The translations under genes were made by a program, and so were the position numbers. A stretch of DNA of 64,000 nt. Source: Arcobacter sp. CECT 8986. GTDB lineage: Bacteria > Campylobacterota > Campylobacteria > Campylobacterales > Arcobacteraceae. The notes beneath the pieces were generated by a model. The model saw only the letters and a list, made by a program, of their open reading frames with translations, did no database searches and was not told where the DNA came from. The stretch lies in contig NZ_PDKG01000007.1 of assembly GCF_004116725.1 (NCBI RefSeq), forward strand, positions 1 to 64,000. Direction: 5' to 3'. Shown here piece by piece: positions 32,393-36,914 of the stretch; the stretch's first letter is position 1; every line of letters begins with the position of its first letter.

Positions 32393-33691
32393 ATGAAAGC
32401 AAAAAAACTATTTAAATGTGTTATTACACTATTTAGTTTGCAAGGAATTTTAATGAGTGCACAAATTAAACATATAAATATTAATAATGTTGAAGTGCCT
32501 GTTATTTTTGAAAAACAAACAAGTTTACCAATTTTAAATTTACAATTAGTTTTTCAAAATTCAGGTTCAATTCAAGATAATAAACTTAATGGAATTGCCT
32601 CCTTTTCGGCAAAATTATTAAATGAAGGTACGAAAAAGCTTGGCTCAACTAAATTTGCTTCAAAATTAGAGAGTAATGCAATTTCACTAAATGCAACTTC
32701 TGGTTTTGAGACTTTTGTTATTGAACTTTCTTCTTTAAAAGAAGTTAACAATAAAGCTTTTAATTATTTAGAAGATTTATTAAAAGATCCAAACTATGAT
32801 AAAAGTGTAGTTGAAAAGATAAAAACAATTCAAATTGGTTCTTTAAAAAGAAAACAAAATGATTATGATTATGTTGCTAAAAATCAATTAAAAAAAGTTT
32901 TATTTAAAGATACACCATTGGAAAACCCTTCAAGTGGTACAATTGAGTCTATTTCTAAAATAAAACTATCAAATATAAAAGATTTTATATCAAATACATT
33001 CAATCTATCAAATTTGATTATTGTTGCAGGTGGTGATGTAAAATATTCTGAAATTGAATCAAAACTAAAAGAAGTTTTAAAAAATTTACCAACTGGTAAG
33101 AAAAGAGAACTTAAAAGTTTTGAAATTACAGCAAAACCAACAACAAAAGAGTTATTAAAAGATACTCAACAAGCATATATCTATTTTGGAAGTAAATTTA
33201 ATGCAAATCCAACAAATAAAGATAATTATATGGCAAAAGTTGCCTCTTTTATTTTAGGTGGTTCTGGATTTGGTTCAAGACTTATGGAAGAGATAAGAGT
33301 AAAAAGAGGTTTAGCTTATAGTGCTTATGGATATGTTTCTATCAATAAATCACACTCTTATTTTACAGGTTATTTACAAACAAAATTAGAAAGTGCTAAA
33401 GAAGCTAAAGAGTTAGTTTCTAAAATTGTTGATGAGTTTGTTCAAAAAGGTGTAACACAAGATGAATTAGATTCTGCAAAGAATTTCTTACTTGGAAGTG
33501 AACCACTAAGAACAGAAACATTAGCACAAAGACTAGGAAGAGCTTTTAATCTTTATTACAAAGGATTAGAGCAAGATTATCCTAAAAAAGAATTAGAAAA
33601 AATTCAAAATTTAAAATTAGATGATTTAAATGATTATATTAAATCTCATAAAGAGATTATTAATTTATCATTTTCAATTGTAAGGAAATAA
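32393..33691 (+). CDS. M16-family peptidase-like protein without the zinc motif
   Basis: This 432-residue protein has a signal peptide (core [18 protein letters not shown]) and the two-lobed M16 fold. The place where active family members carry HxxEH reads [19 protein letters not shown], so both histidines and the glutamate are missing. The C-terminal lobe keeps the R-Y pair region ([16 protein letters not shown]). This resembles the non-catalytic partner subunit found in two-protein M16 peptidases. It is predicted to be periplasmic. No catalytic partner is seen in the window. Confidence 0.82.
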
Positions 33692-33692
33692 A

Positions 33693-34964
33693 TTGTTAAG
33701 AATTGCCCCAAGTTTAACTGGAGACATGCAAATAAATGACTTAAGAGTTGCTCTATTTAATTTTATTATGTCAAAAAAATTAGATGAAGAACTTTTAATT
33801 AGAATAGAAGATTTAGATAAAGAGAATTTTATTGAAGGAAAAGACAAGGAGATTTTAGAACTTTTAAATCTTTTTTCAATAGATTATACAAGAGTATTAT
33901 ATCAAAGTAGTAATTTCAAATATTATCAAAAACTTGCAATGCAGTTAATGGGACAAAAAAAAGCTTTTGCTTGTTTTTGTAGTGATGAAAAACTAGAAGA
34001 ATTAAAACAAGATGCAATAAAAAACAATAAACCTGTTGTTTATGATGGTTTTTGTGAAAAGTTATCTGATGAAGCAGTATTAGAAGTTAATGCTCCTTTT
34101 ACTGTTAGAATAAAAAGACCAAATGATAATATTAAATTTGATGATTTAATAAAAGGAACATTAGATTACTCTTCTGATGATGTAGACTCATTTGTTATTT
34201 TAACTCATGATAAGAATCCTACTTCTAATTATGCTTGTGCAATTGATGATATGTTATATGATATTTCATTTGTTATAGATACAGAAGATAAAATTTCAAA
34301 CACTCCTAAACAGATTCATATTAGAAACTCTTTAGGTTATAGTAAAAAAATAGATTATCTTCATTTACCAAAAATAGAGGTACAAGATGAGATTTCTATA
34401 AAAAGTCTTATTGAAGAAGGTTTCTTACCTGCAGCAATTGCAAATTACTTAGTATTATTAGGTAATAAAACACCAAAAGATATTTTTACTTTAGAAGAAG
34501 CAATAGAGTGGTTTGATACTAAAAATATTTCAAAAAGTAGTGTTGTATTTGATATTGAAAAGTTAAAAATGATAAATAAACAGCATTTAGAATCAATTGA
34601 TGAATTAAGACTTTCTAAATTATTAGGATTTGCAGATACAGATATTGGTAAATTGGGAAAACTATTTTTAGAAACTTGTAGTACATTAAAACAAATAAAA
34701 GAGAGAATTGATTTAATTTTTTCTAAAAAAGAGAGAATTGATGAATTTCAAGAAGAAACTACAAAAATTATAGATTGTCTTAAAAAAGCACCTTTTATTA
34801 ATGATTATGCTGAATTTGAAGAATATATCTCAAATGTAACAAATCTTAAAGGTGAAGCATTATTAAAACCTTTATACTATGTTTTTACAGGTACTAATAA
34901 TGGTCCTAAGTTAAATGATATTTATCCATTAGTTAAAAATTATATAGGAGAGATAATAAAATGA
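33693..34964 (+). CDS. gltX: Glutamyl-tRNA synthetase-like protein lacking signature motifs
   Basis: This 423-residue protein aligns by eye with GluRS from the start (LRIAPSLTG for RFAPSPTG) to the anticodon-binding half. The class I HIGH motif reads QIND. The KMSKS loop is deleted: [21 protein letters not shown] directly joins segments that normally flank it. RSDGxPTYNFA has become [11 protein letters not shown], and the ITHVIRGEDH segment [10 protein letters not shown]. The start is TTG at 33693. The frame is open throughout, so it is not a pseudogene by sequence decay. It sits in the gltX-yggT-slt order known from Campylobacter. Aminoacylation seems unlikely and another gltX must exist elsewhere. 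Confidence 0.8.
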
Positions 34965-35242
34965 TAGATGCTTTATTAAGTTCTTTTTTTACAGTAGTAT
35001 TAGGAATAATTTTTCTTTATAAATGGGTTATCATTATTTCAGCAATTTTGTCATGGGTTAGACCAGATCCATACAATCCAATAGTTCAAATGTTATATAG
35101 ATTAACAGAACCTGCTTATGCTCTTATTAGAAGAGTAATTCCTACAGTATTTGGAGGAATGGATTTAGCACCAGTTATTCTTATTTTTATTCTAATATTT
35201 TTAGAAACATTTCTTAGTAAACTATTTATGGGAATGATGTAA
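34961..35242 (+). CDS. YggT-family membrane protein
   Basis: This 93-residue protein has two hydrophobic segments (about 5-30 and 65-90) with the conserved loop [20 protein letters not shown] between them, the hallmark of the YggT family. In other bacteria YggT proteins are linked to division or osmotic functions, and the exact role is unclear. It overlaps the GluRS-like gene by 4 bp (ATGA) and is followed by slt within 4 bp. Confidence 0.88.
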
Positions 35243-35246
35243 TAAT

Positions 35247-36914
35247 ATGAGAGGAACACTTTTTTCATTAATTTTAGCTAGTATATTATATGCTGATAAC
35301 TCTGTTGTTAATAAAAATAGTAGTTCCTCTTTATCTAATGAGAATTTAAAAAAAGAGTTTAAAGTAACATTAGATTGGTTAAAAGATAAACCAAAATCAA
35401 TAACAAAAGATTTCTATATTTTACAATATTTAAAAGAGGATATAACTTCAAAAGAGGCTTTAGATGCCTTAAGTATGGTAAAATATGTAAATAATAAGAT
35501 TTTTTTTGAATTTGCTAAGAAATTTAAAAATGATGAAACTTTAGCTGTTGCTCAATGTATGAGTGCAAGTGCAAAAGAGTTAGTATCTACATATGATGAT
35601 TGTATAAAAGTAGGATTAAGTCTTTATAAAGCGACTACCCTATCACAAACGCAATTAAATCAGACAATTCAATTAGTTCAAGATAGATATTCAGAATTTG
35701 CTCAACAACTAAAAATCATATCTTCTTCTATTCCTTTTACAAAAGTTATTTCAACATCTGTTGATAACTTTTATGAAATTTATCTAAATGTTGGTAATAA
35801 ATTTAGAATTGATTATTTAAATTATAAGCTTCCTAAAAGTACTATTTCAAAAGTAAAAGATGATAGAAGATTTGAAAGACTTATAAAATACTCAATTACA
35901 AATCCTAAATTAGATTTATTAAGTAAATCATTTTTAAATATAGAAGATAAAGGTTTTTCTTCAGATACCTCTTTTTATCTAGCATTAAATGAACTAAATA
36001 ATAATAATTTTGATAAAGCACTACAATATTTAGATAATGCTTATAAAAAAGCATATTCACAAGAATTAAAAAATAAAGTTTTATTTTGGAAATATCAAGT
36101 AACTTTTGATAATAATTATCTTGAACAATTATCTAACTCAAATCACATTGATTTGTATGCATTATATGCAAAAGAGTTATTAAATAAAAAATTGCCTGAA
36201 ATAAAATATGATATTGCGTTACAACATAATGAAATATCTAAATTTGATACTTCAAATCCTTTTTTATGGCTAGATGTTTTAAAAAATAGTAAAGATTTAG
36301 ATAAACAGAAAGTTGATTATTATAAATCTATTTTTACTGATGAAAAAACTAAACCTTATTTAGCTTATATTTTAAATAAATATCATAAATATCAAGATAA
36401 TTTTTATTTATTGCCATATAAAGAGTACTTAAAAGAGTATCCAATAAATAGACAAGCATTAGTTTATTCTCTTGCAAAACAAGAAAGTAAGTTTATACCC
36501 TCTTCTATTTCTACTTCTTATGCACAAGGTGTAATGCAAATAATGCCTTTTTTAAGTAAAGTAATAGCAAAAAGATTAGATGAGAAATATGATATTTTTA
36601 AACAGTTTGATGCAAAAACAAATTTAAAATATGCAAATTATCATTTAAATAATTTAGAAAAGAATATTACAAATCCACTTTTTATTGCATACTCGTATAA
36701 CGGTGGATATGGATATTTTAAATCATTAAAGAAACAAGGTTTATTTGTAAAAAAAGGTTTTTTTGAGCCATTTATGAGTATGGAGTTGATTTCTTATGAT
36801 GAGACAAGAGAATATGGGAAAAAAGTTTTAACAAACTATTACATATATATGAATCATTTAGGTAAGAAGAATAGTTTTAAACTATCTTCTATTTTTGAAA
36901 ACCTAATTGAATAG
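35247..36914 (+). CDS. slt: Soluble lytic murein transglycosylase
   Basis: This 555-residue periplasmic enzyme cleaves peptidoglycan between MurNAc and GlcNAc with anhydro-ring formation. A signal peptide (LFSLILASILYA) is followed by a long helical superhelix and a C-terminal catalytic domain. The active-site glutamate is in LAKQESKF near residue 412, with QGVMQIMPF and the AYNGGYG-like SYNGGYGYF motif downstream. Its 3' end overlaps a convergent lipoprotein gene by 26 bp. Confidence 0.92.
   Translation: MRGTLFSLILASILYADNSVVNKNSSSSLSNENLKKEFKVTLDWLKDKPKSITKDFYILQYLKEDITSKEALDALSMVKYVNNKIFFEFAKKFKNDETLAVAQCMSASAKELVSTYDDCIKVGLSLYKATTLSQTQLNQTIQLVQDRYSEFAQQLKIISSSIPFTKVISTSVDNFYEIYLNVGNKFRIDYLNYKLPKSTISKVKDDRRFERLIKYSITNPKLDLLSKSFLNIEDKGFSSDTSFYLALNELNNNNFDKALQYLDNAYKKAYSQELKNKVLFWKYQVTFDNNYLEQLSNSNHIDLYALYAKELLNKKLPEIKYDIALQHNEISKFDTSNPFLWLDVLKNSKDLDKQKVDYYKSIFTDEKTKPYLAYILNKYHKYQDNFYLLPYKEYLKEYPINRQALVYSLAKQESKFIPSSISTSYAQGVMQIMPFLSKVIAKRLDEKYDIFKQFDAKTNLKYANYHLNNLEKNITNPLFIAYSYNGGYGYFKSLKKQGLFVKKGFFEPFMSMELISYDETREYGKKVLTNYYIYMNHLGKKNSFKLSSIFENLIE

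Follow-up and report, generated by a model that had tools for sequence, protein, structure and literature searches.

Why does a glutamyl-tRNA synthetase gene that has lost both signature motifs of its active site keep an open reading frame? The question is raised by gltX2, a gene in the window, by which we mean the whole stretch of 64,000 nucleotides from Arcobacter sp. CECT 8986 that was analysed. According to PMC3927822, the GluRS2 of Campylobacterota loads glutamate onto tRNAGln, and the product is the substrate for GatCAB. Of the 10 epsilonproteobacteria in the same 2014 survey, 6 had both GluRS2 and GlnRS, and its authors suggested that GlnRS may be non-functional there; no mention of GluRS2 degeneration was found in the accessible part of it. 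Our literature search, limited to papers free of subscription, found nothing beyond that survey on degenerate GluRS2 in relatives of Arcobacter.

In the present study, we compared the locus with its counterparts across the order Campylobacterales. We found that GluRS2 has lost its motifs repeatedly in GlnRS-bearing genomes, and that the degenerate protein is under purifying selection.

The gltX2 gene

The features of the locus are as follows (window coordinates and strand).

32393..33691, +, M16-type peptidase gene (name assigned from sequence), upstream neighbour and dN/dS control
33682..33687, +, Shine-Dalgarno-like AAGGAA of gltX2, read from sequence
33693..34964, +, degenerate gltX2 (pseudo-GluRS2), 423 amino acids, TTG start, TIGR00464 and PF00749 matches
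33729..33740, +, QIND in place of the HIGN signature, residues 13-16 (alignment)
33972..34055, +, retained putative Zn-type site, C94-x-C96 ... Y117-xxx-C121 (columns unchanged by parsimony)
34224..34226, +, PTYN to PTSN, glutamate-pocket Tyr, Y178S (alignment)
34272..34292, +, VIRGEDH to VIDTEDK, pocket Arg, R196D (alignment)
34380..34385, +, junction of a 10-codon in-frame deletion, after residue 230 (alignments against L006 and L012)
34946..34950, +, Shine-Dalgarno-like AGGAG for yggT, inside the 3' end of gltX2
34961..35242, +, yggT, its ATG overlapping the gltX2 stop (ATGA, 34961-34964)
35247..36914, +, Slt-type lytic transglycosylase gene (name assigned from sequence), downstream neighbour

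The frame is open throughout its 423 codons. The product matched TIGR00464, the NCBIfam model for bacterial glutamate--tRNA ligase, at 330.6 bits, above the cutoff of 289.95, and PF00749 at 168.7 bits. The HIGH signature of the TIGR00464 family is replaced by QIND, and the KMSKS signature (KMSKR) is gone through an in-frame deletion of 10 residues, the exact junction of which depends on the alignment. GKKMSKRD is present in L006, the gltX2 locus of a genome of the same genus (G001). The preliminary description of this DNA had reported the QIND, the deleted loop and the open frame, and the sequence and its alignment against relatives confirmed all three. Its assignment of the copy to the tRNAGln-type GluRS2 also held: gltX2 shares locus and tree position with canonical GluRS2 and is the Campylobacterales ortholog. 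The gene resembles the known Campylobacterota GluRS2 (HphiGN type) in its position by yggT, length, domain order and placement in the tree. It differs in that HIGN and KMSKR are absent, the glutamate pocket is incomplete and the genome also encodes GlnRS. The pocket positions are Y178 and R196, which we take to be such from general knowledge of GluRS structures. Judged from these motifs, the product cannot plausibly aminoacylate tRNA, and we infer that its enzymatic activity has been lost.

It is very unlikely that a non-canonical motif still makes the protein an active enzyme, or that it acts on a different substrate, as in a GluQRS-like reaction. Degenerate copies do keep R3, S7 and the Zn-type cysteines (by parsimony, zero changes in columns C94, C96, Y117 and C121 over 58 degenerate copies of the family), and the product matches TIGR03838 at 127.6 bits. 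However, the cutoff of that model is 276.7 bits. In addition, the KMSKS loop was deleted to a different extent from one lineage to the next, and many have lost the pocket Tyr and Arg, unlike what a shared new active site would leave. GluQRS (YadB) has in common with gltX2 a GluRS-type catalytic domain and a Cys-Cys-Tyr-Cys Zn-type site; gltX2, in contrast, keeps the anticodon-binding domain, lacks HIGH and scores far below the family cutoff. We rejected GluQRS-like activity on this score and on the loss of the motifs.

Synthetases of the genome and the family

Three class Ic synthetases are encoded in the window genome: a GlnRS with a fused YqeY-type domain (754 amino acids, with HIGH and MSKR intact), an intact GluRS1 of 468 amino acids, and the degenerate GluRS2. 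The other gltX gene that the preliminary description had led us to look for is thus present and intact, with a GlnRS besides. This GlnRS is horizontally acquired; the phylogeny of GlnRS conflicts with one built from M16 and YggT, the products of the two neighbouring genes, and places the window genus in two separate GlnRS lineages. By the motif evidence, GlnRS would be the enzyme at work, contrary to the suggestion in PMC3927822.

GatB passed its cutoff in 101 of the 104 genomes of the family, and AsnRS reached the cutoff in none. With no AsnRS above the cutoff, GatCAB would still be needed for Asn-tRNA and would therefore not be lost along with GluRS2 activity.

Two genomes (G052 and G056), and a third that is 83% complete (G037), gave a single class Ic match, apparently GluRS1, and appear to have neither GluRS2 nor GlnRS; their GluRS1 may be non-discriminating. 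A eukaryote-like GlnRS in the G028 bin (L124 1489-2715; G028:C171:7988-9214) is open under the ciliate code (TAA and TAG as Gln), and its contig is most likely a protist contaminant.

Motif loss and GlnRS in Campylobacterales

GlnRS was above its cutoff in 141 of the 397 genomes of the order. GlnRS-bearing genomes supplied 126 GluRS2 sequences: KMSKS is gone from 118, and HIGH as well from 103 of those; both motifs are intact in 64 of the 65 GluRS2 sequences from genomes without GlnRS. The tie between GlnRS presence and GluRS2 degeneration (118/126 versus 1/65) is far beyond chance, and the loss is common to the relatives of the window gene, a point that the preliminary description had raised. 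The lone degenerate copy without GlnRS is in a genome that is 74% complete (G021), from which GlnRS may simply be missing. Six genomes (G092, G094, G098, G404, G277 and G217) have GlnRS together with a GluRS2 bearing both motifs; these are possibly recent GlnRS acquisitions, at early stages.

On the M16 and YggT tree, GlnRS presence requires 10 changes and GluRS2 degeneration 9, at least 6 of the latter on strongly supported branches. Six independent pairs could be drawn on supported branches; degeneration follows GlnRS in 4-6 of them and none is opposed, which is modest evidence alone (sign test, p 0.03-0.125). Six more families (f4, f6, f7, f10, f16 and f20) each contain canonical GlnRS-free and degenerate GlnRS-bearing members. 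The GluRS2 motifs were thus lost independently at least about 12 times, a count that assumes that these six families are monophyletic.

The acquired glnS is often the immediate neighbour of the degenerate gltX2, in one orientation or the other (in f16, f20 and f6; for example, L266, L297 and L308), as if it had been inserted there repeatedly.

Selection after motif loss

We calculated dN/dS by NG86 and compared it with a neutral simulation that used the gltX2 composition. Close degenerate pairs gave 0.11-0.33 in the family and 0.12-0.32 at the order level, where every domain was constrained; the window gene and its nearest relative (G005), which have the same deletion, gave 0.33. The values were 0.04-0.14 for canonical pairs, mostly about 0.1 for the M16 neighbour and 1.2-1.4 in the simulation. 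The degenerate copies are therefore under purifying selection, and the neutral rates that would have meant true decay were not found among the relatives. The earlier proposal that selection holds a protein which, from its motifs, would not aminoacylate agrees with a dN/dS of about 0.2.

A young, decaying pseudogene, still open by recency, would account for the destroyed active-site motifs and for a dN/dS about two times that of canonical copies. It deserves almost no credence: these dN/dS values lie far from neutral, no internal stop was found in any degenerate copy used, although about 8% of neutral mutations would make one, and the degenerate lineages extend over several genera and families. 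A simple pseudogene is rejected by dN/dS and the open frame.

One apparently frame-broken copy, in G032, was left out of the degenerate set. Here gltX2, yggT and glnS are consecutive (L123; G032:C290:3700-9300), and all three contain many frame jumps. Because yggT and glnS are broken too, we set the copy aside as likely noisy assembly, the jumps probably being indel errors and not decay.

The degenerate tree of the family has a length of about 16 substitutions per site, and 33 sites are invariant both there and in the canonical copies of the family. The sites that changed in degenerate copies are the catalytic H13, G15, N16, T41, G197, D199 and KMSKR; the basic residues R116, R171, K386 and R405, otherwise invariant, were also lost.

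Fold, surface and charge

The AlphaFold2 model of the product shows a predicted complete GluRS fold (pLDDT 92.2, pTM 0.87), and the best Foldseek match was to a solved GluRS, 2cfo (TMq 0.84). With burial approximated from residue classes, 3.7% of the exposed-like sites are hydrophobic in degenerate copies, compared with 3.5% in canonical copies and 65% at mutational equilibrium. Because these sites remain hydrophilic, the degenerate GluRS2 appears to be kept soluble and folded. Constraint extends over the whole fold, and conserved hydrophilic sites relax most, from a pN/pS of 0.030 to 0.192; this pattern also fits selection for folding alone.

On average, net charge drops from -4.6 to -13.7 in degenerate copies, a shift of about -9, and the arginines per protein fall from 15.5 to 9.8. 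Both changes argue against strong or intact tRNA binding. A dead factor that holds tRNAGln, for example shielding it from GluRS1 or passing it to GlnRS, would suit the anticodon-binding and stem-contact domains present in most copies. Given the charge shift and the loss of the four basic residues named above, such a factor is improbable, and the guess of a tRNA-binding factor in the preliminary description is weakened accordingly.

The operon and yggT

Most of the family shares the gene order mqnC, M16 peptidase, gltX2, yggT, slt, and gltX2 is followed by yggT in each of the 74 loci that we examined in the wider order, which bears out the earlier claim of a conserved operon. In 157 of 174 copies, with or without GlnRS in the genome, gltX2 ends in an ATGA-type overlap with the downstream start. 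A Shine-Dalgarno-like string is present in the last 30 nucleotides of gltX2 in 60/60 GlnRS-bearing and 37/40 GlnRS-free copies of the family. To judge from this arrangement, a frame break in gltX2 would probably lower yggT expression. The putative coupling accounts for the open frame; it does not alone account for the constraint on amino acids, which is strong. We therefore rejected coupling as the only constraint and kept it as the core of the main rival explanation.

In that rival explanation, gltX2 is a relic trapped in the operon: its product has no function, its frame is locked by the yggT overlap and ribosome-binding site, and it is kept folded since it is always made. We regard this as a real possibility, if a somewhat doubtful one. 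It fits the conserved junction with yggT, the string inside gltX2, the fold-like constraint and the greatest relaxation at functional polar sites. It also fits two genomes: in G233, about 100 codons were lost in frame while the final codons and the junction with yggT remained, and in G254 gltX2 is gone and glnS abuts yggT directly in its place. However, such trapping would make large in-frame deletions cost nothing, yet they are rare among degenerate copies; exposed-like sites still have a pN/pS of 0.27; and about fifteen charged residues have hardly changed across the family. Because pure coupling would tolerate the large deletions that are so rare, a non-catalytic role of the protein is favoured.

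Lineages without the gene

GluRS2 was not found in GlnRS-bearing G042, G044, G129, G142, G143, G155, G178, G141, G215, G254 and G301, and the copies of G233 and G138 are without the anticodon-binding domain. Whatever its role, gltX2 is dispensable in some lineages. In two of these genomes, G042 and G044, GatB is present and AsnRS absent, which weakens a strict requirement for GluRS2 as a GatCAB scaffold.

Discussion

The explanation that we consider best, at about an even chance, is that GluRS2 was made redundant by GlnRS and retained a non-catalytic role. GluRS2 makes Glu-tRNAGln for GatCAB in Campylobacterales. The arrival of glnS by horizontal transfer would have made this aminoacylation redundant, and the ATP and glutamate sites would then have degenerated as motifs were substituted and the KMSKS loop was deleted in frame. 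A full-length synthetase, soluble and folded, would still be produced under purifying selection. The reason for its retention is, in our view, most likely a protein-level role that predates GlnRS, as a binding partner or scaffold, with the GatCAB machinery as the first candidate partner, and the ATGA overlap with yggT may help to hold the frame open. That this non-catalytic function is ancestral to GluRS2 and was unmasked at least about 12 times by GlnRS replacement is a little short of an even chance. The preliminary description had read the gene as a repurposed copy; the selected, non-aminoacylating GluRS2 of that reading stands, but GlnRS as the cause was missed, and so were the many recurrences, in place of one event.

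Dead synthetase paralogues are already known as a kind, and the recurrent GluRS2 case is new within it. HisZ and others likewise keep a selected synthetase fold without aminoacylation; gltX2, judged from its sequence, has the same combination of a predicted synthetase fold, no catalytic motifs and purifying selection. Unlike HisZ, which stems from one ancient duplication, pseudo-GluRS2 arises repeatedly from an orthologous enzyme after replacement.

Our finding reverses the published guess as to which of the two coexisting enzymes works in GlnRS-bearing Campylobacterales. An NCBIfam equivalog model scores the motif-less protein as glutamate--tRNA ligase, so automatic annotation likely mislabels it. 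GluRS2 has become redundant on many occasions, and nearly every time its dead form was kept, which amounts to a replicated natural experiment. It opens a testable question: whether synthetases harbour non-catalytic roles that go unseen, or whether genes tightly coupled in an operon can become stuck as folded, useless proteins. If an ancestral second function was indeed unmasked, these genes would form a natural class of synthetases that have died repeatedly and yet stayed under selection.
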